The notes under the pieces were generated by a model. The model saw only the letters and a program-made list of their open reading frames with translations, ran no database searches and had not been told where the DNA came from. The position numbers and the translations under genes were made by a program. A DNA stretch of 64,000 nucleotides. It comes from Citrifermentans bremense (GTDB taxonomy: Bacteria; Desulfobacterota; Desulfuromonadia; Geobacterales; Geobacteraceae). Position 1 is the stretch's first letter, and each line of letters begins with the position of its first letter. The stretch lies in NCBI RefSeq assembly GCF_014218275.1, contig NZ_AP023213.1, forward strand, positions 3,016,001 to 3,080,000, written 5' to 3'. Shown here piece after piece: positions 5,666 through 18,983 of this stretch.

Positions 5666-5681
5666 TTTGCAAAAATGCGAA
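5666..5681. promoter_or_regulatory. Palindromic activator-type site upstream of the kinase gene (fourth copy of the motif)
   Basis: TTTGCA-AAAA-TGCGAA shares the 6-4-6 dyad layout of the three sites at 9265, 9297 and 9436, with one mismatch in the right arm. It sits in the 180-bp divergent gap. A weak -24/-12-like string with TGGCA follows at 5689-5704. Control of the kinase/regulator operon by its own regulator is inferred. Confidence 0.45.
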
Positions 5682-5804: not shown

Positions 5805-7775
5805 GTGCAGAAGTACCTCTTCGCCTTCATAAACAAACTGAAGCTGCGCTGGAAGATGGTGGTCTTGGTGTTGCCGCTCGTGATCATCCCCATTTTCCTC
5901 GTGGGAGGGGTCATCGGCTACATCTCCACCAAGCAGGCCTACCTGGGGATCACCCAGACCAGCAAGGACGACCTGCAGCACATGGCCGGCTTCACCGTCG
6001 ACATGTTGAACTCCCACTACCAGCAATTCCAGGTCTACAAGCAGGACAAGGAGAAGACCTTCCACGAAGAGCTGAGGACGGTGAGCGAGCTCGCCTACAA
6101 CGTGGTGCAGTCGCAGCAGAGACTGCAGCAAAAAGGGAGGATGGATCTCGCGGCGGCGCAGCGCGAGGCGCGCAATGCCCTCTCCAAGGTGAACGTCGGC
6201 AAGACCGGCTACATCTACGCCATGAACAGCCGCGGCGAGCTGAAGGTCCACGTGGCGCAGGAAGGGGTCAACGTCTTTGACAGCCGGGACGAGACCGGGC
6301 GCTACTTCATCCGCGAGATGATCGAGAAAGCGCGCCGCTCCAAGCCCGGTGAGGTGCTCTACATCGTCTACCCCTGGCGCAACGCGGCGCTCGGCGACAA
6401 GTCGCTCAGGAAGAAGGTGGTGGCCTACCGCTACTTCAAGGAGTGGGACTGGATCATCGCCGCGGGGGGCTACCTGGAGGAGACCTACGAGGACGTGGCT
6501 TTCGAGCGCCGCTCCTTCCAGGAACTGAAGGAGAAGATCAAGGCGAAGAAGGTCGGCAAGACCGGCTACATCTTCGCCATGGATACCTCGGGGAACTTCA
6601 TGATCCACCCGACCGGCGAGGGGAAAAACTTCCTGAACGCGGTCGACTTCAGCGGGCAGCATTTCATCAAGGAGATGTGCGAGCGGAAAAACGGCTGGAT
6701 CCGCTACCCCTGGAAGAACCAGGGGGACAAGGGCCCCAGGATGAAGATCGTGCGCTACGAGTACTTCCAACCCTGGAACTGGATCGTCGCGGTCGGCTCC
6801 TACGAGGAGGAGTTCTACCAGGAGGCGAACGTGATCAAGGGGCGCATCATGGAGAGCATGGTGGTGCTTACCATCCTGGTGAGCGTGATGGCCGTGTTCC
6901 TGGTGCTTCTGGCGTCCCGGGTGATGACCGAGCCGATCTCCAGGATGATCGAGGTGATCAGGAAGGTGAAATCGGGGCGCCTGGACGAGACCATGAAGGT
7001 GGAGACCCAGGACGAGCTGGGCGAGCTCGCCACCGCCTTCAACCGGATGACCAAGATCATCAAGCACAACAAGGAGCTGGAGGCGAACCTGGCCCAGCAG
7101 GGGAAGATGGCCTCCTTGGGCGTCCTCTCCTCCGGGGTCGCCCACGAGATCAACAACCCGCTCGGGGTTATCCTGGGGTACGCCGCCTACATCGAGAAGA
7201 AGCTCTCCCCGGACGACCCCAACTACCGGTTCATCCACGAGATCAAGCGCGAGAGCAAGCGCTGCAAGAAGATCGTGCAGGACCTCCTCTCCTATGCGCG
7301 CACGCCGCAGCCGGTGCTGGAACCGACCGACCTCAACGCGCTTTTGGAGCAGATCGTAGACTTCGCGGCGAACCACACCGACATGCACCACGTCTCGGTG
7401 GAAAAAAGCTTCGACCCTTCGCTGCCTGAGATCATGGTGGATGGCGACCAGTTGCGCCAGGTGGCGATCAACCTGATCCTCAACGCCGGCGCCGCCATGC
7501 AGAGGGGGGGCAAACTCGTGGTCAGCACCCAGAACGGGGAAGACAACTGCGTGAGCCTCAAGTTCTCCGACAACGGCGCCGGGATCGCCGCCGAGCACAT
7601 GGAGCGGATCTTCGAACCCTTCTTCACCACCAAGGTGAAGGGGACGGGCCTGGGGCTTGCCATAACGAGGCAGATCGTGGAGCAGCACCACGGCAAGATC
7701 GGTATCGAGAGCGAGATCGGCGTCGGGACCACGGTCGAGGTGCGGCTCCCCATCAACCGGGACGACTACTGTTAA
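5805..7775 (+). CDS. Membrane sensor histidine kinase with two Cache domains
   Basis: The 656-aa protein starts at GTG 5805 after GGGGGAG; an upstream ATG at 5667 has no such site. Its order is an N-terminal membrane helix (about 15-35), two consecutive Cache-like periplasmic domains each marked by VGKTGYIYAM/VGKTGYIFAM, a second helix near 350, and a HAMP linker. HisKA follows with SSGVAHEINNPLG (phosphoacceptor His about 447), then a HATPase domain with N, G1 and G2 boxes (DNGAGI, GTGLGLAI). Tandem Cache domains usually bind small organic ligands such as carboxylates, but the ligand is unknown here. The adjacent NtrC-type regulator is its evident partner. Confidence 0.92.
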   Translation: MQKYLFAFINKLKLRWKMVVLVLPLVIIPIFLVGGVIGYISTKQAYLGITQTSKDDLQHMAGFTVDMLNSHYQQFQVYKQDKEKTFHEELRTVSELAYNVVQSQQRLQQKGRMDLAAAQREARNALSKVNVGKTGYIYAMNSRGELKVHVAQEGVNVFDSRDETGRYFIREMIEKARRSKPGEVLYIVYPWRNAALGDKSLRKKVVAYRYFKEWDWIIAAGGYLEETYEDVAFERRSFQELKEKIKAKKVGKTGYIFAMDTSGNFMIHPTGEGKNFLNAVDFSGQHFIKEMCERKNGWIRYPWKNQGDKGPRMKIVRYEYFQPWNWIVAVGSYEEEFYQEANVIKGRIMESMVVLTILVSVMAVFLVLLASRVMTEPISRMIEVIRKVKSGRLDETMKVETQDELGELATAFNRMTKIIKHNKELEANLAQQGKMASLGVLSSGVAHEINNPLGVILGYAAYIEKKLSPDDPNYRFIHEIKRESKRCKKIVQDLLSYARTPQPVLEPTDLNALLEQIVDFAANHTDMHHVSVEKSFDPSLPEIMVDGDQLRQVAINLILNAGAAMQRGGKLVVSTQNGEDNCVSLKFSDNGAGIAAEHMERIFEPFFTTKVKGTGLGLAITRQIVEQHHGKIGIESEIGVGTTVEVRLPINRDDYC

Positions 7776-7821: not shown

Positions 7822-9207
7822 GTGACTGTGAAGAAAAGGATCATGCTGGTCGACAACGAGGAAGGGCTCTGCCGCATGATGGAGGCGGTGCTTTCCGACA
7901 ACGGCTATGCGGTCACCGCGTACACCAGGAGCTTCGAGGCTGCCGAAAGCTTCCAGGCGGGGCAGTGGGACCTCCTGGTGACCGACATCAAGATGCCGGG
8001 GATGGACGGGCTGGAGCTTTTGCAGAAGGTGAAGCAGAAGGACCCGGCCCTCCCGGTGATCATGGTTACCGCCTACGCCACGGTGGAGATGTCGATCCAG
8101 GCGCTCAGAAAGGGTGCCTACGACATGCTCACCAAGCCCTTCGAGCCCGAGGAGCTTCTGTACCGGGTGAAGAACGCCCTGCAGCACACCCGCCTCATGG
8201 AGGAGAACCGGGAGCTCAGAGAAGAGCTCGTCGGGAGGTTCAACTTCGGCAACATCATCGGCGCCTCGAAGGCGCTCAAGGAGGTCCTGGAGCGGGTGGA
8301 GAAGCTCGCCGTGCGCGACACCTCGGTGCTGATCACCGGGGAGTCCGGCACCGGCAAGGAGCTGATAGCGCAGGCGATCCACTACAACTCCCCCAGAAAG
8401 GAGAAGAAGTTCGTCGCCATCAACTGCGGCGCCCTCCCCGCCTCCCTTTTGGAGAGCGAGCTCTTCGGCTACCGCAAGGGTGCCTTCACCGGGGCGGCCG
8501 AGAACCGCCGCGGCCTTTTGGAGACCGCCGACGGCGGCACCCTCTTTCTCGACGAGGTGGGGAACCTCCCCATGACGGTGCAAAAGACCCTCTTGCGCTT
8601 TCTGCAGGAACAGGAGTTCAACCGGCTGGGTGACCCTACCCCCACCAAGGTGGACGTCCGGGTGCTCTCGGCCACCAACGCCGACATGAAGCAGGCTGTC
8701 AAGGCGGGGGAATTCCGCGAGGACCTCTACTATCGCCTTAACGTGGTCAACATCCACCTCCCCCCCTTGAGGGAGAGAAAGGACGACATAGCGCTTTTGG
8801 CCGCGCATTTCATCTCGCTGCAAAACTCCAAGTTCGGCACCCAGATCAAGGGGCTCGACCACGAGGCACTGGAGGCCGCGGTGGAATTCCCTTGGCCCGG
8901 CAACATCCGGCAGCTCAGAAACGTGATCGAGGCGTGCATCGCCATGGAGAACAACGACTACATCACCTTCCCGGTACTTTCCCAGTTCATCGAGGTGGCC
9001 CCGCTGGAGGCGGGGGGAGAGGCTACGGCCGACGAGGGGGAGTACGCCAAGGCGCTGATGCGCTTCGAAACGGAGTACCTGCGGGGGCTTTTGCGCAAGA
9101 ACCAGGGGAACGTCGAGGCCGCCGCGAAAGAGGCCGGCACCAACATGGCAACCATCTACCGCAAGATCAAGAAGTACGGCATCAGGAAGGAAGAGTACAA
9201 CATGTAG
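7822..9207 (+). CDS. NtrC-family sigma54-dependent response regulator
   Basis: The 461-aa protein starts at GTG 7822 after GGGAGG. The receiver domain has acidic residues DNEE and the phosphoacceptor Asp55 in VTDIKMPG. The AAA+ domain has Walker A GESGTGKE (173-180), an intact sigma54 contact loop GAFTGA (220-225) and FLDEVGNLP. A Fis-type HTH (NVEAAAKEAGTNMATIYRKI) ends the protein. It lies 46 bp after the kinase gene, so the pair forms one operon. Three dyad sites and a sigma54 promoter directly downstream point to the next operon as its target; this is inference from position. Confidence 0.95.
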   Translation: MTVKKRIMLVDNEEGLCRMMEAVLSDNGYAVTAYTRSFEAAESFQAGQWDLLVTDIKMPGMDGLELLQKVKQKDPALPVIMVTAYATVEMSIQALRKGAYDMLTKPFEPEELLYRVKNALQHTRLMEENRELREELVGRFNFGNIIGASKALKEVLERVEKLAVRDTSVLITGESGTGKELIAQAIHYNSPRKEKKFVAINCGALPASLLESELFGYRKGAFTGAAENRRGLLETADGGTLFLDEVGNLPMTVQKTLLRFLQEQEFNRLGDPTPTKVDVRVLSATNADMKQAVKAGEFREDLYYRLNVVNIHLPPLRERKDDIALLAAHFISLQNSKFGTQIKGLDHEALEAAVEFPWPGNIRQLRNVIEACIAMENNDYITFPVLSQFIEVAPLEAGGEATADEGEYAKALMRFETEYLRGLLRKNQGNVEAAAKEAGTNMATIYRKIKKYGIRKEEYNM

Positions 9208-9264
9208 CATAAAGGCTTCCCCTTCCTCCTTCGTTTTCGCCTTTGCCGCAAGTCGACGGAACTA

Positions 9265-9280
9265 TTTGCAGCATTGCAAA
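9265..9280. promoter_or_regulatory. Enhancer-type dyad site 1
   Basis: TTTGCA-GCAT-TGCAAA is a perfect 6-4-6 palindrome 58 bp after the regulator stop codon. Its form suits a dimeric Fis-type HTH. Binding by the adjacent NtrC-type protein is inferred. Confidence 0.65.
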
Positions 9281-9296
9281 AACCCTGTTTCCGGCA

Positions 9297-9312
9297 GTTG
9301 CAACGCTGCAAA
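9297..9312. promoter_or_regulatory. Enhancer-type dyad site 2
   Basis: GTTGCA-ACGC-TGCAAA has the same layout as site 1 with one outer base changed. The centre-to-centre spacing of 32 bp puts both sites on the same helix face. Confidence 0.65.
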
Positions 9313-9435
9313 GACCCAACTCCCGCACCCTTCAAGCGGGCTAACCCGCCTGAATTCAGTCACTTTCCAGCTCCCCCCCACCTTTCTCCGGCAAAACCTG
9401 ACGTGAGGCTGCGGCAACCGCCTCTCTAATCTCGA

Positions 9436-9451
9436 TTTGCGTTTATGCAAA
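9436..9451. promoter_or_regulatory. Enhancer-type dyad site 3
   Basis: TTTGCG-TTTA-TGCAAA repeats the dyad with one changed base in the left arm. It lies 98 bp before the -24 element of the sigma54 promoter. Confidence 0.6.
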
Positions 9452-9549
9452 AACCCCCCTCAAGTCCCCCTCCCCGGCAGAACCGTTACCACGCCCTAAG
9501 CCTTCGACATCAATCATGTTTTCACAGGAGAAGGTTGTAAACTCCGGAT

Positions 9550-9565
9550 TGGTACGGTGGTTGCT
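9550..9565 (+). promoter_or_regulatory. Sigma54 (-24/-12) promoter
   Basis: TGGTACG-GTGG-TTGCT matches the consensus TGGCACG-N4-TTGCW at all but one position, with the invariant GG and GC exactly ten bases apart. It would start transcription near 9576, about 63 nt upstream of the first gene of the unknown operon. Confidence 0.75.
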
Positions 9566-9638
9566 AATGATGTAGACGTCACTCTTTGGATCTCTTGCTT
9601 GAGTATCGTCTGCTTTTTCAAAAAGGTATTGGGGTCTT

Positions 9639-9836
9639 ATGCGGGAAGCTACGGTCTGCCCTTTCTACGGCAAAAACGATGATTACTGCGACGTCGGCTG
9701 CGGCTACATCTCGCCGCACGACGTGAAGCAGATCATAAGTTTCTGCAGCTGCCGTTACAGGGAATGCCTCAAGTACCAGGAGCTTTCCGACCGCGTCCCT
9801 CTGGGGGCGCTCGATCACAAGCTTTGCCCGGCATGA
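9639..9836 (+). CDS. Small cysteine-rich protein of unknown function
   Basis: The 65-aa product begins MREATVCPFYGKNDDYCDVGCGYISPHD and has seven cysteines, including CPFY, CDVGC, the pair FCSC and a C-terminal CPA. The pattern suggests metal or iron-sulfur binding, though no named family is recognised. It is the first gene after the sigma54 promoter and the three dyad sites. Two membrane-protein genes follow in the same direction. No membrane segment or signal peptide is visible, so it is probably cytoplasmic. Confidence 0.7.
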   Translation: MREATVCPFYGKNDDYCDVGCGYISPHDVKQIISFCSCRYRECLKYQELSDRVPLGALDHKLCPA

Positions 9837-9915: not shown

Positions 9916-10167
9916 ATGAGTGAAAAAGAACTTGAACTGCTCTCAAGACTCGAGGAACTCGAGCGGCATACCTGGCGCAACAGCGCCATCCTGCGCGCAG
10001 TCGCCATGGTAGCTTTCACCGCGATGATCGGCATCGTCATCGCCTCAGGCGTCGTGGGAGGCGGACGCGGCAGCCACTGGTCGGGGCCTGCTTGGAACAC
10101 CATGTGGCTCTACGGCCTCTTCGCCGCCAACGCGGTGTCCATGTTCTGGACCACCCACAAGGAGTAG
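9916..10167 (+). CDS. Small membrane protein with two transmembrane segments
   Basis: The 83-aa product follows a clear AAAAGGAG site. It begins with a charged, heptad-like helix (EKELELLSRLEELERHTW, possible coiled coil). Two hydrophobic segments follow, about 25-45 and 58-77, linked by a glycine-rich loop. No family is recognised. It is 12 bp upstream of the next membrane-protein gene, so the two are co-transcribed and may form one complex. Confidence 0.7.
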   Translation: MSEKELELLSRLEELERHTWRNSAILRAVAMVAFTAMIGIVIASGVVGGGRGSHWSGPAWNTMWLYGLFAANAVSMFWTTHKE

Positions 10168-10179
10168 GAGGACGCCGTC

Positions 10180-11229
10180 ATGCCCATGAAAATGTCCAAC
10201 ATCTTGCTGCTCCTCGTTGCAGTCGTGATCTGCGCGACCTTTTCCCTGCGCATCTTCCAGGGACTGGACGAGATGATGGGTGAGCAGTACTGGGTAATCG
10301 ACACGGCCCAGGGGGACCACGGCTGGTACGGCATGGGGCTTCTCCCCCACGTGAAGAAGGTCGCCAAGGAAGTGGTCCAGGCGGCGAACACCGACGCGGA
10401 CGAGAAGAACAACTACATCATCTACGCCCAGAACGGCGATTTCGCCGGGAACTCCGTCTATGGCATCTGCCTCGGCATCCCCCTCATCATGTACCTGATC
10501 TGGCTCGCCTTCATCCTCGGCTTCCCGGACCGCATCGACCCGTACCTTTTGCCGCGGCGCATCTTCACCCTGACCGTGATCATCATGTGCTCCATCATCG
10601 TGAACCTGTTCCTGATGAGGATCGCCGCCGACTTCGCCCGCGACCCCATGTCGCGCATCGCCAACGTCGCGGGGAACCACGCCTCGCTTTTGTTCCACAA
10701 CGCCGGCATCTGGTTCGCGATCCTGTTCTCGGCCCTTGGAACCCCGAACCACTCCGCCCGCGAGACGGCGGCCCCGGACAGCCGCAACTGGCAGACCCAG
10801 GCAAACGAGAAGTTCAACTGGATGTTCGTGCTCCTCTTCGCCGTCACGGTGCTAGAGGTTGCGCTCGTGAAAAACAAGCTGGCGCTCCCGGACGCGGCGG
10901 TGGATTACTCGGTCTGGATCATACTGGTGGTCATCTTCATGCGCATGTTCGGCTTCTCCCCCAGATACTGGGTGAAGCGCGGACGCGGCATCGGCATCAT
11001 GATAGCCGGTACCCTGGTGACCCTCCCCATCTTCTACCTCCTGGAGCGCGCCACCGGCACCCTGGGGGCCGGGTTCGCCTCGCCGATCCTGTCCAAGGCG
11101 CTCGGACCCGAGAACGCGAACATAGGCTTGTCGCTCATGGTTTCGATCTATCTAATCTTCTGGATGGAGTTTGCCGCAGCGATACGAATGAACGGACCGT
11201 CCAAATCACTGTCTCTCGGAAAGCAGTGA
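10180..11229 (+). CDS. Polytopic membrane protein of unknown function
   Basis: The 349-aa protein begins with an uncleaved-looking hydrophobic helix (SNILLLLVAVVICATFSL). A roughly 70-residue extracytoplasmic stretch follows, containing HGWYGMGLLPHVKK. At least six further transmembrane segments follow (about 95-120, 130-150, 170-190, 215-235, 245-265, 275-295, 325-345). No transporter or enzyme signature is recognised. It closes the operon started at 9639. Possible roles are membrane redox or a transport-associated complex, but the sequence does not decide this. Confidence 0.7.
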   Translation: MPMKMSNILLLLVAVVICATFSLRIFQGLDEMMGEQYWVIDTAQGDHGWYGMGLLPHVKKVAKEVVQAANTDADEKNNYIIYAQNGDFAGNSVYGICLGIPLIMYLIWLAFILGFPDRIDPYLLPRRIFTLTVIIMCSIIVNLFLMRIAADFARDPMSRIANVAGNHASLLFHNAGIWFAILFSALGTPNHSARETAAPDSRNWQTQANEKFNWMFVLLFAVTVLEVALVKNKLALPDAAVDYSVWIILVVIFMRMFGFSPRYWVKRGRGIGIMIAGTLVTLPIFYLLERATGTLGAGFASPILSKALGPENANIGLSLMVSIYLIFWMEFAAAIRMNGPSKSLSLGKQ

Positions 11230-12072
11230 CTTGACCTTCTGCTGCAAGATCCGAAGATCAAAGGTAAAGCCAGAAACGGCCTTCCCTTTTTCTTTTCCGC
11301 CAACGTCAATTATTCAGTCATAATAAAACAATGTAACATCAATTTTTCAAATTGGAAGCAAACCTCACCTGCAGCTGTTCTGCTACGGCAAAAGCCGCCT
11401 CCTATATCGTTCACACACCCGCCTCCCCTCTCTCTAGCTCATGCGTCGCCAGGGTCAGAAGCGAACAGACTAGATAATAAAACCAGCTGCGTCGACGGCG
11501 TTTTTTGCCCAAAAGTTCTAAATTTACCTGCAGCCCCGACGATAAATAACAGTACCGGCAACCCCTCACCCATCAATGCGACAGCGTTTGAGTCAACCGT
11601 AAACCGACACCCCAAAAAACACAGCGACGACCCCGCGCACCCCGGCACCCCCAGAATAATAAAAAATAATTTAGTCGCAACTTTCTGGTTTTTACTTGTA
11701 ATTTCTATATCTTGCAGCTTACCAGATAAGACAGTTTTCGGGTTCTTGATATTTTTTTGCTTTAGAACGCTGTTTATTTTTATTGTACATTTGGAAATCA
11801 TGTGGTAAAACAATTTTACGTATACGCTGACACGCTCCTAAAAACCCGGGGCACAGAGAAGGGGAACAGCAGACCTCCCCTCCCAAAAGGCCATAAAAAA
11901 AACCAGTTACGGCCGCAGCGAAGGACAGGGCCGTTCAACAAACCCAGTTTCAGAAGTTGCAGATCGGCATCGAAATCTAAAGAAATCGGAAAGGGGGATT
12001 TATCGGGACTTGACCACGGGGACGGGACGCCGTCGCCACAACAGCGCAGCTTACAAGAAAGGAGTGACTACC
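11230..12072. other. 843-bp non-coding stretch upstream of the DUF485/ActP-like operon
   Basis: No convincing gene is present. A 124-codon minus-strand reading frame at 11439-11813 lacks a good start and family features. The middle (about 11,640-11,830) is strikingly AT-rich compared with the GC-rich surroundings, with runs such as AATAATAAAAAATAATTTAG. The last 70 bases are GC-rich and lead to AAAGGAG before the next gene. It probably holds the operon's control region and a long leader, but no promoter could be fixed with confidence. Confidence 0.5.
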
Positions 12073-12384
12073 ATGGCAGAAAGACAGTACGACTGGAAAG
12101 CAATCGCAAAAAATCCAAAATTCGTGGAACTGCACCACAAGAAGACGGCCTTCCTTTTCGGATGGTGGATCTTCTCCTGCGTGTACTACTTCCTGCTCCC
12201 CATCGGGGCGGCGTACACACCGGGGATCTTCAAGGTCAAGATGATCGGCGTCGTCAACTTCGGGTACGTATTCGCCCTCTCCCAGTTCTTCGTCTCCTGG
12301 GGAATCGCGCTTTACTATTCGCATGTCGCCAACAAGGACTTTGACCGGTTGACCAGGGAACTGATCGACGAACTGCATCTCTAG
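12073..12384 (+). CDS. DUF485 small membrane protein (symporter partner)
   Basis: The 103-aa product starts at ATG 12073 after AAAGGAG; an in-frame ATG at 12010 lacks a site. It has two transmembrane helices (about 30-50 and 63-85) and motifs such as FVELHHKKTAFLFGWW and SWGIALYYSHVANKDFDRL typical of DUF485 proteins. These are encoded next to acetate/cation symporters of the ActP group, in the manner of yjcH-actP. The symporter gene begins 16 bp downstream. A role as a small accessory subunit is family inference. Confidence 0.9.
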   Translation: MAERQYDWKAIAKNPKFVELHHKKTAFLFGWWIFSCVYYFLLPIGAAYTPGIFKVKMIGVVNFGYVFALSQFFVSWGIALYYSHVANKDFDRLTRELIDELHL

Positions 12385-12400
12385 GAAAGGAGGAACGACA

Positions 12401-14395
12401 ATGACGATGAAAAAGATATTTATAGCAGCCACGCTGGCCCTCTCCGTTGCCGCGGCCGCCTTTGCCGAAGAGCAAAAGGCAGCCCCCGCCGCCGCACCCG
12501 CGGTGAGCGCACCCGCAGCACAGGGCGCCGCTCCCGCCGTCGCAGCCCCGGCCGCCCAGCTTAACCAGGCCCAGGCGGTCGCGACGCCGGCCCCGGCCAA
12601 GCCCGCTCCGGTCAAAAGGGAGCTCAAAACCAACAGGACCATCACCATCGGCATGTTCATGGTCATCATCGCTATCACCATGGGGGTCGTTGTCTGGGCC
12701 GCCAAACAGACCAAGACTGCTTCCGACTTCTACGCCGCAGGCGGCGGCATCACGGGGACCCAGAACGGCTGGGCTATCGCCGGCGACTACATGTCGGCAG
12801 CCTCCTTCCTGGGGATTTCCGGCCTGATCTCGCTCTACGGCTACGACGGGTTCATGTACTCGGTCGGCTGGCTGGTCGCCTACATCACGGTCCTTTTGAT
12901 CGTCGCCGAGCCGTGCCGCAACGCGGGCAAGTACACCCTGGGGGACATCCTCTCCTTCCGTACCTCCCCTAAACCGGTGCGCGCCTTCGCCGCCATCTCC
13001 ACCGTCGCGGTCTCCACCTTCTACCTCACCGCCCAGATGGTCGGTGCAGGCAAACTGATGGCCCTTCTGGTCGGCATCCCCTACAAGATGTCCATCATCG
13101 GCGTCGGCGTCCTCATGGTCGGCTACGTAGTCTTCGGCGGCATGGTCGCTACCACCTGGGTACAGATCATCAAGGCGGGCCTCCTCATGTCGGGCGCCTT
13201 CCTGCTCTCCTTCCTGGTCATGCTGAAGGCCGGCTTCAACCCGATCGGCTTCTTCTCGACCATCGTCAGCAGCCCTGACATCCAGGACCACGTCTCCAAA
13301 CTGGTGTTGAAAGACGGCGTCATCCTCGCCGGCGCCGACGCGGGGCAGCGCTTCCTCGAGCCTGGCCTCTACCTGAAGAACCCGCTGGACCAGATCTCCC
13401 TGGGCATGGCCCTTGTGCTCGGCACCGCCGGCATGCCGCACATCCTGATGCGCTTCTTCACCGTCCCGACCGCGCAGGCGGCACGTAAATCCGTCATCAT
13501 CGCGATGTTCATCATCGGCGGCTTCTACATCCTGACTACCCTCCTCGGCTTCGGCGCGGCGATCCACCTCACCCCGCAGGGGATCACCCAGGTCGACCCG
13601 GGCGGCAACATGGCTACCCTGATGCTGGCACAGCAGATGGGCGCCGACATCGCACCCGTCATCGGCGACCTCTTCCTCGCCTTCCTGTGCGCCGTAGCCT
13701 TCGCCACCATCCTCGCCGTTGTTTCCGGCCTGGTGCTCGCGGCCTCCGCGGCCATCGCACACGACATCTACGTCAACGTGATCAAAGACGGTCACGCCGA
13801 CCAGCATGAGCAGGTCTTCGCAGCACGCGCCACCTCCTTCGTGGTAGGCGCCTGCGGCATCATGATCGGCCTCGCGGCCGAGAAGCAGAACGTCGCCCAC
13901 CTCGTGGCACTCGCCTTCGCGGTCGCCGCTTCCGGCAACCTGCCGGTCGTCATCCTCTCGCTCTTCTGGAGGAAGTTCAACACCGCTGGCGTCATCTCGG
14001 GCCTCTTGGTAGGCACCATCGCCTCCATCGGCTTGGTGATGGTCTCCCCCAACATGACCTACCCGAAAGTGGTTGCCGCAGGCGCCAAGAAGGTGGTCGC
14101 CGCTATGGAGAAGAAGCAGGCGGCTCTCCCTGCCGGCGAGACCCTCTCCGAAAACGACGCCAAGGCGCTTGCCAAGGCGAAGGTAGACGCACAGAAAGAC
14201 GGCACCTCCATGATGGGACTCGACAAACCGCTCTTCACCCTGAAGAACCCCGGCATCGTCTCCATCCCGCTGGGCTTCATGGCCGCCATTCTGGGCGCCC
14301 TCGCCTTCCCGAACAGGCGTTCCGAGGAGATGTTCGACGAGGTCTACGTTCGCCAGAACACCGGTTTGGGCATGGCCAAGGCAGTCGAGCACTAG
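12401..14395 (+). CDS. ActP-like sodium:solute symporter with Ala/Pro-rich N-terminal extension
   Basis: The 664-aa protein opens with a signal peptide (MKKIFIAATLALSVAAAAFA). About 45 residues rich in Ala and Pro follow before the first core helix (TITIGMFMVIIAITMGVVVW, about 83-102). The rest is an SSS-family transporter: DFYAAGGGITGTQNGWAIAGDYMSAASFLG and later helices resemble acetate permease ActP. A soluble insert of about 60 residues lies before the last helix. Uptake of acetate or a related monocarboxylate is likely. The operon ends in a strong terminator at 14420. Confidence 0.9.
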   Translation: MTMKKIFIAATLALSVAAAAFAEEQKAAPAAAPAVSAPAAQGAAPAVAAPAAQLNQAQAVATPAPAKPAPVKRELKTNRTITIGMFMVIIAITMGVVVWAAKQTKTASDFYAAGGGITGTQNGWAIAGDYMSAASFLGISGLISLYGYDGFMYSVGWLVAYITVLLIVAEPCRNAGKYTLGDILSFRTSPKPVRAFAAISTVAVSTFYLTAQMVGAGKLMALLVGIPYKMSIIGVGVLMVGYVVFGGMVATTWVQIIKAGLLMSGAFLLSFLVMLKAGFNPIGFFSTIVSSPDIQDHVSKLVLKDGVILAGADAGQRFLEPGLYLKNPLDQISLGMALVLGTAGMPHILMRFFTVPTAQAARKSVIIAMFIIGGFYILTTLLGFGAAIHLTPQGITQVDPGGNMATLMLAQQMGADIAPVIGDLFLAFLCAVAFATILAVVSGLVLAASAAIAHDIYVNVIKDGHADQHEQVFAARATSFVVGACGIMIGLAAEKQNVAHLVALAFAVAASGNLPVVILSLFWRKFNTAGVISGLLVGTIASIGLVMVSPNMTYPKVVAAGAKKVVAAMEKKQAALPAGETLSENDAKALAKAKVDAQKDGTSMMGLDKPLFTLKNPGIVSIPLGFMAAILGALAFPNRRSEEMFDEVYVRQNTGLGMAKAVEH

Positions 14396-14419
14396 CAGCA
14401 AACGCATAACGCTGAAAGG

Positions 14420-14451
14420 ACTGGGGAAGGGAAACCTTCCCCAGTTTTTTT
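14420..14451 (+). terminator. Rho-independent terminator after the ActP-like gene
   Basis: ACTGGGGAAGG pairs with CCTTCCCCAGT around a GAAA loop (11-bp stem), followed by seven T residues, 25 bp after the stop codon. Confidence 0.95.
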
Positions 14452-14537
14452 GTCTTCTGCACACGATAAAGGGGACGCAAGCGGGGCGGAAAAACGATTT
14501 TTTTTGCCCCTCCCCCTCCCATCTCCCGCAAAACAGT

Positions 14538-14565
14538 TTTACATCATGGTATTTTTCTGTAGAAT
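14538..14565 (+). promoter_or_regulatory. Sigma70-type promoter of the DUF294 gene
   Basis: TTTACA (14538-14543), a 16-bp spacer and TAGAAT (14560-14565) predict a start near 14572. This fits the ATG at 14599 and starts a new unit after the terminator at 14420. Confidence 0.55.
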
Positions 14566-14598
14566 CAACGCCACACTCATTTGCATCGGGCGGAGAGC

Positions 14599-15816
14599 AT
14601 GCCACACCGGGTATACCTACCAGAGCCAAGCGACGCGGAACTCCTAGAGGAGCTTTTGGGGGAGGTGCACGCCTACCTGCCGCTTCTGGACCGGGACGAG
14701 ATGCGCCGCTTCCTACAGGGGCTGAAGTTCGAGATCGAGGACGAGCTGACCGGGTTGCGCAGCTCCTCCGGAGAGGAGGACCAGCTGCTGGAACGGGTGC
14801 GCGCGGAACGCGACTACGGCGCATTATTCCGGATTCACGAGAAGTTGAACCGGATCGAGATGGAGCGCTTCCTCTCTTTCTATTCGGTCACCGCCCTGCA
14901 CGAGAACTGCACCCGGTACCGCGACGCTTTGGCCGGCCGCGCCCTGCAACTGGTGCTGGAGGAGATGAGCTCCCCCCCGCCGGTCCCCTTCGCCCTGATC
15001 AGCATGGGAAGCGACGGGCGCGAAGAGCAGACCCTCATCACCGACCAGGACTACCTGATCGTCTACGGCGACGACGGCGGCGAGGAGGCCGACGCCTGGT
15101 TCAGGCAGTATTCAGAGATCCTGGTTGAGCGGCTGGCCGAGATAGGGTTCAAGAAATGCACCGGGGGCATCATGCCCTGCAACGACAACTGGCGCGGATC
15201 GCTGTCGCAGTGGCAGCGCCGGCTCCTGGGGATCGTGCGCTACGAGACCGAGGACTACGGCAAGAACCTGATGGACCTGATCGTCCTTTCCGACGCCCGC
15301 TTCGTGGCCGGCGACGCGGAGCTTGCCGGCGTACTGGTTACGCGGATCCGCTCCCTTTTGCAGGACTACTTCATGGCGCTTTGGGGGATGGCCAAGGCCG
15401 CGACCGAGATGCGGCTCGCGCTCGGCTTTTTGAAGCGCTTCTGGACCGAGGGAAGCGGCGAGCACAAGGGGTGCTTCAACCTGAAGCTTTTGGCCTGGGC
15501 GCCTCTGGTGATGAACGTGAGGATCCTCGCCATCAACCAGGCGATCCCCGCCACCTCCACGGTGCGCCGCATCGAACTTTTGGAGCGCGAGCACAGCTTC
15601 TCCGCGGAGACTGCGCACGGGCTCGTCGAGGCGTACCGGATCCTCACCAAGCACCGCATCCTGCTCCAGGTCAAGGTGATCAAGGGGATCCAGGACGACG
15701 CCTACTACCTGAACCCCTACTCGCTGCCGGCCGACGAAAGGGAGCGGATCAGGCAGGCGCTCCTTTTGATCGAGGACCTGCAGAAGATAATTCACACCAA
15801 TTTTTCCATAGTCTAG
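14599..15816 (+). CDS. DUF294 putative nucleotidyltransferase (GlnD-like fold)
   Basis: The 405-aa product starts at ATG 14599 (MPHRVYLPEPSD); TTG at 14581 is an alternative. An N-terminal helical region precedes the nucleotidyltransferase segment SMGSDGREEQTLITDQDYLI, with the metal-binding DxD-type acidic residues present. A C-terminal substrate-binding DUF294_C-like helical domain (GEHKGCFNLKLLAWAPLV) follows. The usual CBS or cyclic-nucleotide domains are absent. Such proteins often sit beside ActP/DUF4212 symporters and may modify or regulate them. The target is unknown. Confidence 0.85.
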   Translation: MPHRVYLPEPSDAELLEELLGEVHAYLPLLDRDEMRRFLQGLKFEIEDELTGLRSSSGEEDQLLERVRAERDYGALFRIHEKLNRIEMERFLSFYSVTALHENCTRYRDALAGRALQLVLEEMSSPPPVPFALISMGSDGREEQTLITDQDYLIVYGDDGGEEADAWFRQYSEILVERLAEIGFKKCTGGIMPCNDNWRGSLSQWQRRLLGIVRYETEDYGKNLMDLIVLSDARFVAGDAELAGVLVTRIRSLLQDYFMALWGMAKAATEMRLALGFLKRFWTEGSGEHKGCFNLKLLAWAPLVMNVRILAINQAIPATSTVRRIELLEREHSFSAETAHGLVEAYRILTKHRILLQVKVIKGIQDDAYYLNPYSLPADERERIRQALLLIEDLQKIIHTNFSIV

Positions 15817-15844
15817 ATCCTCGCGAAAAAGGGACGGAGGCGCC

Positions 15845-16168
15845 ATGAGCCAGCCGGAAAAAAGCTACCAGGTCAACCTGTTGCGCCCCAAAAAAGGGCA
15901 CATGCGGGATGAGGTGCTCATCATCCTCGCCATCCTCTTCGGCTGGGGGGTCTGCACCTTCGGTTTTCAGCTTTTGGTCTACCTCTGCCAGGGAAGCGGC
16001 GCGGGGAGCCTTCTGACCCGCCTCACCCTTTTCAACCTCCCGCTGCATTTCTGGTTCACGGGGCAGTTCCTGCCGCTTTGGTTCATCGTCCTTTGCGTCC
16101 TCTTCAACCTGTACGTGGACCGCATCACCGAATATCACAGCCGCAGGCGGGACAAAAGCTATGAATGA
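15845..16168 (+). CDS. DUF4212 small subunit of a sodium:substrate symporter
   Basis: The 107-aa protein has two transmembrane helices (about 24-47 and 75-93) and the ending LPLWFIVLCVLFNLYVDRITEYHSRR, characteristic of DUF4212. It overlaps the start of the large symporter gene by 8 bp. This coupling is the standard arrangement for the two-subunit symporter family. Confidence 0.9.
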   Translation: MSQPEKSYQVNLLRPKKGHMRDEVLIILAILFGWGVCTFGFQLLVYLCQGSGAGSLLTRLTLFNLPLHFWFTGQFLPLWFIVLCVLFNLYVDRITEYHSRRRDKSYE

Positions 16169-17681
16169 TTCCTCCTGGTCCATATTCGTGGTCCTTTTGG
16201 TGCTGGCTTCCTTCATCGTAGTCGGGCTCAGGCAGAAGTCGCGCGAGAGCCAGGAGTACGGCTTCGGCGGCCGCTACACCGGGAGGATCGGGGGGGGGGC
16301 CGCCATCGCCAGCAACTGGATGAGCGCCGCAAGCCTAATGGGGCTTGCCGGGATCATCTACCTGCAGGGGTACCAGGGACTTGCCTACGTGATCGGCTGG
16401 ACCGGGGGCTACGTGCTGCTCCTCGTGCTCCTGGCGAGCCAGATCCGACGCTTCGGCAAGTTCACCGCCCCCGAGTTCGTGGGGGAGCGCTACGGCTCCC
16501 AAGCCGCCCGGGCCATCGCCGCCGCCATCTCCATCGCCATCTCCATCATCTACTGCGTGGCCCAGTTCAAGGGGATCGGGCTCATCTTCTCCTTCATGTT
16601 CGGCATCGAGTACCAGCAGGGGGTGACCTTCGGGGCGCTGGCCGTGGTCTCCTACCTGGTCATCTCCGGGATGCTCGGGGTTCCCAGGAACCAGCAGCTG
16701 CAGTACCTGGTAATCAGCGTTTCCTTCATCGTGCCGCTCATGTGGCTTGCCCGGAAGCTCGGCTACTTCTGGCTCCTGCCCCAGTTCGGCTACGGCCGCG
16801 CGCTCACCGACCTGTCGCGCCAGTTCAACATCGACTTCACCCTCCCCTTCGCCAGCGGCTCCCTGTTTCAGTGGTGCGCTCTCTGCTTCACCCTCATGGT
16901 CGGCACCGCCGGCCTTCCCCACGTGCTGTCGCGCTTCTATACGGTCCCCAACGTGCGCGACGCACGCTGGAGCGTGGTCTGGGGGCTCTTCTTCATCGCC
17001 CTGATCTACTGGTCCGCCCCAGCCTTCTCGGTCTTCGGGAGGCTTTTGGAGGCTAAAAACGGCCTCATCCCCGACCCCGCCTCGGCACGCGCCGCGGCCG
17101 ACGTGATCGTCCTGAAGACCGCACTCCAGGGAGGGCTTCCCGGCTGGCTCGTGGGGGTCCTTGCCGCCGGCGCGCTCTCTGCCGCCTTCTTCACGGTGGC
17201 GGGGTTGCTCATGACCGGCGCGGCCTCGATCTCCCACGACATCTACTATTCCATGGTCAACCCCCGCGCCAGCGAATCGGCGCGCATGCAGGTGGCCAAG
17301 GGAGGGACCCTGGTGCTTGCCGCCATCGTGCTCCTTCTGGCGCTCGACCCGCCGGGGCTGATCGCCGAGATCACCGCGGTCGCCTTCGCGCTCGCCGGCA
17401 ACACAATCTTCCCTCTCTTCCTTTTGGGGATCTGGTGGGGGCGCGCCAACCGCTACGGGGCCATCGCGGGGATGCTCACCGGCATCGTCTGCACCGCTCT
17501 CGCGCCCCTTTGCGGCGGCGTGTTCCCTGAGCTGGCGCTTCTCTTCCCGGTCACCTCGTCGGCGCTTCTGGGCGCCCCCCTTGTGATAGCGGTGATGATA
17601 GCGGTTTCGCTTCTGACCCCCGCCCCCCCGGAGGAGATGGGGCGCTTCCTGGAAAAAGAGGTGCACGGGCACCTCGACTGA
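16161..17681 (+). CDS. Sodium:solute symporter (SSS family, DUF4212-associated large subunit)
   Basis: The 506-aa protein has about 13 transmembrane helices. The segment YGFGGRYTGRIGGGAAIASNWMSAASLMG matches the sodium-binding core of the SSS family, and SRFYTVPNVRDAR is shared with ActP-type carriers. Acetate or another short organic acid is the likely substrate by family. It forms an operon with the DUF4212 gene before it and the degenerate DUF294 gene after it. Confidence 0.92.
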   Translation: MNDSSWSIFVVLLVLASFIVVGLRQKSRESQEYGFGGRYTGRIGGGAAIASNWMSAASLMGLAGIIYLQGYQGLAYVIGWTGGYVLLLVLLASQIRRFGKFTAPEFVGERYGSQAARAIAAAISIAISIIYCVAQFKGIGLIFSFMFGIEYQQGVTFGALAVVSYLVISGMLGVPRNQQLQYLVISVSFIVPLMWLARKLGYFWLLPQFGYGRALTDLSRQFNIDFTLPFASGSLFQWCALCFTLMVGTAGLPHVLSRFYTVPNVRDARWSVVWGLFFIALIYWSAPAFSVFGRLLEAKNGLIPDPASARAAADVIVLKTALQGGLPGWLVGVLAAGALSAAFFTVAGLLMTGAASISHDIYYSMVNPRASESARMQVAKGGTLVLAAIVLLLALDPPGLIAEITAVAFALAGNTIFPLFLLGIWWGRANRYGAIAGMLTGIVCTALAPLCGGVFPELALLFPVTSSALLGAPLVIAVMIAVSLLTPAPPEEMGRFLEKEVHGHLD

Positions 17682-17708
17682 CAACGTCTTTTTTAGTGGG
17701 AGCCGTAC

Positions 17709-18983
17709 ATGGCGATGCTCTTGGGAACCAAGGGAGACGACATCCTCAAGTGGCGCGAGAGCGCGCGGCTGGTGGAGGGGCTGAAAACGCGGCTCACCCG
17801 CAAGTGGGGGCGCAGCTCCGCCGATGAGGCGCAGTCGTTCCTGGAGGGGATGGCCGAGGCGCTGGAGGCGGAGCTGGAGTACGAGTCGCAGCTGGACACG
17901 GGGCTCGAGGCCCTGCGGCGGGCGCTTGGGGAGACTGTTGCCCCGGCCGAGCTGAAGGGGCTCACGGCGCGCCACGGCGAACTCCTCGCCGCCCACTTCA
18001 GCAGGCGCGGCTCGGTTCTCGCCCTCACCGGCGCAGCCAACGCCTGGCACGACCTCCTGGTGGCACGGGCGGCACTTCTGGCCGAGGAGCGGATGCTTTC
18101 CCTCGGTCAGGGGAGCGCGCCTGTGTACGCTCTGCTGGTGACGGGGGACCGGGGGCGGGAGGAGCAGACCCTCTACGGCAAAAACCGCTATCTCCTTTTG
18201 CACCAGCTCGATTCCGAAAGGTTCTTCCTATTCACCCGGCAGCTCGCCGGGGCCCTCAAGGAGGCGGGGATGGTACCCGGGGAGGAGGCGCTATGGCACG
18301 GTTCGCTGGCAGAATGGCGGGCCCTTCTGAAAGGGGGGAACACGACCCGGAAGAGGGACCTGCGCGAGGAGCTGGAAAACCCGCTCCCCGCCTTCGCCCC
18401 CCCGATGAAGGGAGGGAACACGGCCATGCCCGACGGACAGTGGCGCCTGGAGGCGATGGCGGACCTCGGCTTCGTCACCGGCTACGAGCCCCTGGCGGAC
18501 GAGGCGTTAAGCGCCGCGGCGTCGGCGCTCAAGGAGCAGAGAAGCACGGAGGCGTTCTTCCAGCTCGCGCGCAAGGCGATCCACCTCCCGCTGGCACTCG
18601 GGCACTTCGGACGCTGGAGGCTTGAGAAAAGCGGAGAGCACAAGGGAGAGATCGACGTGGAAGGGCTGGGGCTCTCGCCGCTGGTGGGCGCGGTGCGGGT
18701 TTTGGCCGTGCACCTTGGGGTGCAGGGGGGGGGGACGCTGCACCGGGTGAGGGAGCTCCTCTACCGCGGCGCGTTCAGCGTGGAGCTGGCCCAGAGGGTG
18801 CTTGAGGCCCTGCAGTGCCTGATGCAGCTGCGGATCATGAGCGAGACCCGCGGTGATGAGACAGGGTCTCACGCGAACCCCGAGGAGTTCACCCAGGAGC
18901 AGGACGAGAGGATCAGGAATGCCTTCGTCGCGGTGCTCGACCTGCAGAAGATGGCCTACCAGCGCATGGTGGGACAGGGATAG
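17709..18983 (+). CDS. DUF294-type nucleotidyltransferase paralogue with lost catalytic motif
   Basis: The 424-aa protein aligns in layout with the DUF294 protein at 14599 (N-terminal helices, NTase core, GEHKGEID...LSPLVGAVRVLAV C-terminal segment). The catalytic stretch reads VTGDRGREEQTLYGKNRYLL. GSDGREEQ is altered to GDRGREEQ and the acidic TDQD is replaced by GKNR, so metal-dependent nucleotidyl transfer is unlikely. It may be a regulatory pseudo-enzyme serving the neighbouring symporter. Confidence 0.8.
   Translation: MAMLLGTKGDDILKWRESARLVEGLKTRLTRKWGRSSADEAQSFLEGMAEALEAELEYESQLDTGLEALRRALGETVAPAELKGLTARHGELLAAHFSRRGSVLALTGAANAWHDLLVARAALLAEERMLSLGQGSAPVYALLVTGDRGREEQTLYGKNRYLLLHQLDSERFFLFTRQLAGALKEAGMVPGEEALWHGSLAEWRALLKGGNTTRKRDLREELENPLPAFAPPMKGGNTAMPDGQWRLEAMADLGFVTGYEPLADEALSAAASALKEQRSTEAFFQLARKAIHLPLALGHFGRWRLEKSGEHKGEIDVEGLGLSPLVGAVRVLAVHLGVQGGGTLHRVRELLYRGAFSVELAQRVLEALQCLMQLRIMSETRGDETGSHANPEEFTQEQDERIRNAFVAVLDLQKMAYQRMVGQG

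Follow-up and report, generated by a model that had tools for sequence, protein, structure and literature searches.

The stretch of DNA that we analysed (the window) is 64,000 nucleotides long and comprises positions 3016001-3080000 of the 4.46-Mb, one-contig genome of Citrifermentans bremense. It holds a kinase-regulator gene pair, a run of palindromic sites (dyads) with a -24/-12 promoter behind the regulator gene, and an operon of three genes, here listed in window coordinates.

5666-5681, no strand assigned: fourth dyad of the window, TTTGCAAAAATGCGAA, one mismatch, before the kinase gene
about 5805-7775, plus strand: sensor histidine kinase with dCache_2 (two modules), HAMP, HisKA and HATPase domains (Pfam); the GTG start at 5805 is our choice
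7822-9207, plus strand: NtrC-type response regulator with a receiver, a sigma54-interaction AAA+ domain with GAFTGA, and a Fis-type HTH
9265-9280, no strand assigned: distal dyad 1, TTTGCAGCATTGCAAA, exact TTTGCA-N4-TGCAAA; half-sites 0.98 identical across 19 aligned relatives
9297-9312, no strand assigned: distal dyad 2, GTTGCAACGCTGCAAA, one mismatch, 32 bp from dyad 1; half-sites 0.92
9436-9451, no strand assigned: proximal dyad 3, TTTGCGTTTATGCAAA, one mismatch; half-sites 0.95
9550-9565, plus strand: predicted -24/-12 promoter, TGGTACGGTGGTTGCT, one mismatch to TGGCAC-N5-TTGCW; 0.87 conserved
9639-9836, plus strand: Cys65, 65 aa, cysteine-rich, function unassigned (alignment made, no family match)
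9916-10167, plus strand: TM83, 83 aa, hydrophobic; mean column identity 94% in 15 sequences
10180-11229, plus strand: MP349, 349 aa, predicted membrane protein, family unassigned

An earlier, sequence-only reading of this DNA had described the regulator as orphan-looking. It is not an orphan, because the gene for a Cache histidine kinase precedes it on the same strand, with 46 bp between the two. By its domains, all above cut-off, the kinase is a dCache_2 histidine kinase (PF08269, 205.4 bits against a cut-off of 26.5; PF00512; PF02518), and the regulator, with PF00072, PF00158 and PF02954 above their cut-offs, is classed as an NtrC-type protein (bacterial enhancer-binding protein). Its gene does lie just upstream of the dyads with an intact GAFTGA loop, as that reading had it; in fact, both GAFTGA and the receiver Asp55 are unchanged in 47/47 aligned regulators. 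The best NCBIfam match is AtoC (NF008469), but the score of 455.4 bits stays below the cut-off of 714, and we do not take the regulator for an AtoC equivalog. Among 58 genomes, its own included, the kinase occurs in 48 and a regulator ortholog (at least 66% identity) in 47, the next among the matches listed standing at 47% identity or less; one genome (G022) was scored as regulator-free though its contig stops 139 bp past the kinase. The kinase, the dyad at 5666-5681 and the remote targets described below are additions to the earlier reading. A dyad with at most two mismatches precedes the kinase in all 19 loci compared (L062-L080), and the dyad at 5666-5681 likely serves autoregulation.

The three sites behind the regulator gene had been said to share the form TTTGCA-N4-TGCAAA, which is exact at 9265 and only nearly so at 9297 and 9436, whereas the spacing of exactly 32 bp between the first two and the near-consensus promoter at 9550 stand as described. 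The sigma54 -24/-12 consensus is TGGCAC-N5-TTGCW. When the 431-bp intergenic region (9208-9638) was shuffled 5000 times with its dinucleotides preserved, eight of the shuffled sequences contained one dyad with at most one mismatch and none contained two or more, against three observed. The promoter fits the GG-N10-GC frame, with GG and GC at identity 1.0 in a 20-genome alignment, and by this conserved form we predict it to be of the sigma54 type; transcription of the operon would then start near 9576. A block at this expected start (9573-9590, TAGACGTCACTC) is conserved in close relatives, not in the wider set.

Across relatives, the dyads are kept far more faithfully than their surroundings. 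In a 20-region alignment of the intergenic DNA, identity to the window is 0.92-0.98 for half-sites, 0.32-0.63 for spacers, 0.87 for the promoter and 0.41 for the other 379 positions. We then defined operon upstream regions as the 1 kb before TM83, obtaining 106 regions, 85 of them distinct. A dyad with at most one mismatch is found in 80 of these 85, at least two dyads in 72 and at least three in 46, for a total of 200, against a mean total of 0.27 and a maximum of 10 in 119 permuted half-site controls; the genomes are related, and such counts across them are non-independent and ignore kinship. The five regions without such a dyad are L165, which has a perfect promoter, L180, which has 2-mismatch dyads only, and L155, L182 and L187, which we took as the operon loci of G041, G035 and G044 because their contigs are of the same length. 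Per genome, dyads average 14.3 where the regulator is present (n=47; reversed control 4.0) versus 7.3 where it is absent (n=11; control 3.0).

In its own genome, the dyad with at most one mismatch is hardly in excess (six sites versus three for the reversed pattern). Yet all six, namely the three described here, the one before the kinase gene, 260697 and 260797, fall, given our choice of start codons, in three intergenic regions, which belong to one functional set; it is the placement of the dyads, rather than their number, that is the evidence. The small regulon that was expected to be searchable genome-wide did emerge, consisting of the operon, the kinase gene and two remote targets, with -24/-12 promoters at the targets (genome coordinates):

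dyads at 260697 and 260797, gene on the minus strand: SatP acetate transporter target, with the -24/-12 match TGGTATGCTCATTGCT (minus strand, L001:7596-7611, found by eye) between dyads and start codon
3501070-3502233, minus strand: SfMCT gene, with three 2-mismatch dyads and TGGTATGCAAGTTGCT in the same layout

At two mismatches the genome holds 100 sites, so the SfMCT target stands out only by its layout and by its relatives. The SatP protein exceeds the cut-off of AceTr_1 (NF038013, 138.7 bits, cut-off 50) and falls below that of the E. coli-type model (NF007941, 120.9 bits, cut-off 297), and the SfMCT protein scores 404.1 bits with NF049980 (SfMCT L-lactate MFS transporter, cut-off 320), its substrate thus being predicted. 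A chemoreceptor gene (L001:7823-10246, minus strand) ends just upstream of the two SatP dyads.

Both targets recur in relatives. Of 30 loci of the SatP family, 18 are close orthologs (85-100% identity), all of them in regulator genomes and all with at least two dyads with at most two mismatches, together with a promoter. No dyad with at most one mismatch was found at the SatP locus L050 of G043, or at the 11 distant SatP loci (36-49%). For SfMCT, 30 loci were taken from 52 matches and 23 have a dyad (at most two mismatches) with a promoter. As for the others, the proximal dyad has three mismatches in L210, L218 and L226, where the distal dyads are better; L203 has dyads and no promoter match; L205 sits in one gene row after MP349; L202 belongs to G043; and L208 (G057) has neither dyad nor promoter.

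Could the dyads instead bind an unrelated repressor or a global protein, the nearby -24/-12 matches being incidental? A conserved palindrome is not necessarily an activator site, and the -24/-12 motif taken alone is about as frequent in the window as chance would have it (28 matches with at most two mismatches versus 31.5 expected). Against this, dyad and promoter travel together: a -24/-12 match follows the dyad in 78/85 operon regions, in every close SatP ortholog and in the 23 SfMCT loci just mentioned, so that the dyads are tied to such promoters rather than randomly placed. Moreover, the distance from the proximal dyad centre to the -24 G clusters near 85, 95 and 106 bp, falling within 83.5-86.5, 93.5-96.5 or 103.5-109.5 bp in 67 of 78 operon regions. 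We therefore regard this alternative as very improbable, and read the dyads as activator sites.

The distal pair is similarly constrained, with a spacing of 29-33 bp in 57 of 63 measured pairs. These spacings fit looping from one DNA face, in a descriptive sense only: the operon phase vector, itself descriptive, is 0.61 over 78 loci and drops to 0.30 when each of the 24 distinct spacings is counted once. A composite of dyad and promoter (TGCANNNNTGCRAA-N72-102-TGGYAYN6TGCW) gives 31 matches in 24/58 genomes and none for the reversed control. By coordinates, 29 of the 31 precede the operon, SatP or SfMCT; one precedes a Cys65 copy adjoining the regulator of G036, and one lies behind the regulator of G025, where the contig ends and the operon opens another. 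This pattern is insensitive, leaving 34/58 genomes unmatched, its own among them, where dyad 3 reads TTTGCG.

Which protein reads the dyads? The sequence-only reading had proposed that the adjacent regulator binds them. We find support for this in the co-occurrence of sites and regulator across genomes and in the dyads before its own kinase gene, and the adjoining kinase-regulator system very probably recognises them. Where operon and regulator are apart (G038, G047, G055), the dyads and the promoter are found upstream of the operon and not behind the regulator, and where operon and kinase are divergent (G040), the dyads lie in between. Conversely, in three genomes that have TM83-MP349 (G035, G041, G044) the kinase is without a match and the regulator matches do not rise above paralog level; there, neither a dyad nor a -24/-12 match nor Cys65 precedes TM83. 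Likewise G043, which is without the pair, has SatP (87% identical) and SfMCT without a dyad at up to two mismatches. Outside the order, the association holds again. In a sample of 395 genomes of the phylum, MP349 occurs in 10, eight of its own order and two of one distant family (G083, G255), in which regulator orthologs with 78 and 77% identity lie beside MP349 in a row of kinase, regulator, dyads (with one and three mismatches), promoter, Cys65, TM83, MP349 and SfMCT (L318, L319). This suggests that the whole row may have been transferred as a cassette.

These losses and co-occurrences, like the dyads upstream of the pair's own kinase gene, speak against a regulon of the same dyads and sigma54 promoters bound by another NtrC-type regulator (a paralog), alone or besides the regulator at 7822-9207, the adjacent pair being a neighbour or one of several. 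There are exceptions that such a paralog would explain. C. bremense itself has 10 regulator-like matches (E<=1e-100). G020 has an SfMCT with three dyads and a promoter (L277, G020:C82), and no regulator above 44% identity, no kinase and no MP349 were found there, which may reflect contamination (listed at 4%), a gap or the use of another regulator. In G044, an exact dyad lies behind a paralogous kinase-regulator pair (L117, G044:C440, 559-3467; 34 and 41% identity), and 77 bp beyond it comes a -24/-12 match. Because of this last dyad, the site is perhaps not private to the regulator at 7822-9207, and paralogs may use the same site. It is also the reason why we leave the paralog a small, though real, share of probability. 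The regulator of the adjacent pair is nevertheless our favoured candidate.

A few further sites should be mentioned. On contig 16 of G026 (L310), sites with one, zero and two mismatches lack a suitably spaced promoter match; the single-site loci L115-L120, except L117, have no target class; and clusters of TTTGCACGCTTGCAA-like sites in G003 (C1:1949503-1949747 and 2736673-2736917, at about 1.95 and 2.74 Mb) look like a dispersed repeat and were rejected as regulator sites.

What might the kinase sense? Its sensor region matches four Cache structures, among them PscD (5G4Z), Adeh_3718 (4K08) and 4EXO. PscD is reported to bind glycolate, acetate, propionate and pyruvate, and acetate is present in 4K08 and pyruvate in 4EXO (PMC5062169, PMC12415202). 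The pocket Y-x-[FWY]...H...[YF]-x-W...K, the mark of C2/C3-carboxylate sensors, is kept in both Cache modules of the kinase, and the pocket histidine found here is the one that one report ties to binding of pyruvate over L-lactate (PMC12415202). Across 46 kinases, the proximal pocket shows no change other than F/Y at a single position, and the distal pocket is unchanged in 40 or 41 of the 46, those aligning there; among the other rows, L082 and L086 were truncated by the bounds of the extracted sequence. The kinases of G040, G046, G050 and G054 align only from about residue 233, so that their distal sensor module differs or is missing. Judging by these residues, the kinase would sense C2/C3 monocarboxylates.

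The same circuit could answer to another signal, such as C4 dicarboxylates, redox or starvation, with the transporters secondary. Similar kinase-regulator pairs of G. bemidjiensis adjoin dicarboxylate transporter genes (PMC2996986); moreover, the ligand proposed here is a prediction from sequence, and the distal module is the one that varies in the four kinases above. The acetate/pyruvate pocket residues, kept in both modules, point the other way, as do two targets that score above cut-off in acetate and lactate transporter families, and we hold a different signal to be unlikely, if less so than a different regulator. A monocarboxylate is thus the signal that we carry forward.

The operon itself escapes classification. 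Searches of Pfam, NCBIfam and PHROGs returned nothing above cut-off for Cys65, TM83 or MP349; weak Pfam matches of TM83 to Zip and of MP349 to MSL2_3, both below cut-off, were rejected. No relative of MP349 was found in the PDB, and its AlphaFold2 model (21 rows) has a mean pLDDT of 43.7. Still, MP349 is present in 49/58 genomes. It is followed by SfMCT in G037, G054 and G056 across a dyad-free gap, closely so in G040 by coordinates, and by SatP in G052. In our best reading, the unnamed membrane pair TM83-MP349 would be the main target of the system, with a putative role in transport. One could go further and see in TM83-MP349, together with Cys65, an undescribed system for monocarboxylate uptake or energy coupling, perhaps a partner of SatP and SfMCT, which together with a dedicated C2/C3-acid sensor and sigma54 switch would move between genomes as a "sense and import" cassette; this we put forward tentatively, as an idea that may well prove wrong. 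After the operon (12010-18983) come DUF485-SSF acetate-permease-like genes, DUF294 nucleotidyltransferase genes and a second SSF gene. The DUF485-SSF genes (12010-14395) are excluded from the regulon because they have no dyad with at most two mismatches upstream, the match at 12461 being inside the SSF gene.

We propose, with good though not full confidence, that the dyads are activating sites of the regulator at 7822-9207, through which a C2/C3-carboxylate two-component system would switch on uptake genes via sigma54. The double Cache of the kinase would read acetate, pyruvate, propionate and perhaps lactate outside the cytoplasmic membrane and pass the signal by phosphorelay to the regulator. 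Once phosphorylated, the regulator would bind the distal pair and the proximal dyad, and the DNA would loop over about 100 bp so that the regulator can open the sigma54 promoter. In its own genome, the regulon would comprise the Cys65-TM83-MP349 operon, SatP, SfMCT and, through autoregulation, the kinase-regulator genes. The system resembles a switch by which iron-reducing bacteria would control feeding, the same sites standing in front of acetate- and lactate-type uptake genes, and of the membrane pair, in the Geobacter group. For this switch we can now name a sensor, a regulator, a DNA site and a list of targets, all kept across an order of iron reducers; a very conserved, unnamed membrane pair would thereby be linked to carboxylate uptake. 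In the open-licence papers that we searched, we found no account of how these uptake genes get switched on, nor the dyad motif in any of four spellings.

Several known systems offer parallels. AtoS-AtoC of E. coli controls short-chain fatty acid catabolism via sigma54, and the AtoC sites GCTATGCAGAAATTTGCACA and GCTATGCAGAAAATTGCGCA, as given in PMC3118216, hold a half-site similar to that of the dyads, the half-sites being 6 bp apart there versus 4 here; AtoSC targets catabolic genes, whereas here the targets are transporters. In Desulfovibrio vulgaris, DVU3023 and related lactate response regulators are sigma54-dependent and are reported to act on lactate genes and lactate permeases (PMC3333781, PMC4641369). 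The D. vulgaris targets include genes of lactate-pyruvate oxidation, whereas we found only transporters and the unnamed operon. The E. coli systems YpdA-YpdB/YhjX and BtsS-BtsR/BtsT are likewise two-component systems that are reported to respond to pyruvate, BtsSR activating a pyruvate transporter, but they are of the LytS/LytTR and not of the NtrC type. Neither YpdAB nor BtsSR is known to be a sigma54 system. In our control set, E. coli has one SfMCT-family match, which we take to be YhjX. Finally, PscD, Adeh_3718 and 4EXO have pocket residues in common with both modules of the kinase; they are single Cache domains of chemoreceptors, whereas here a double Cache belongs to a kinase. By analogy, then, the system described here would work like AtoSC, the lactate regulators of D. 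vulgaris and the pyruvate systems of E. coli.
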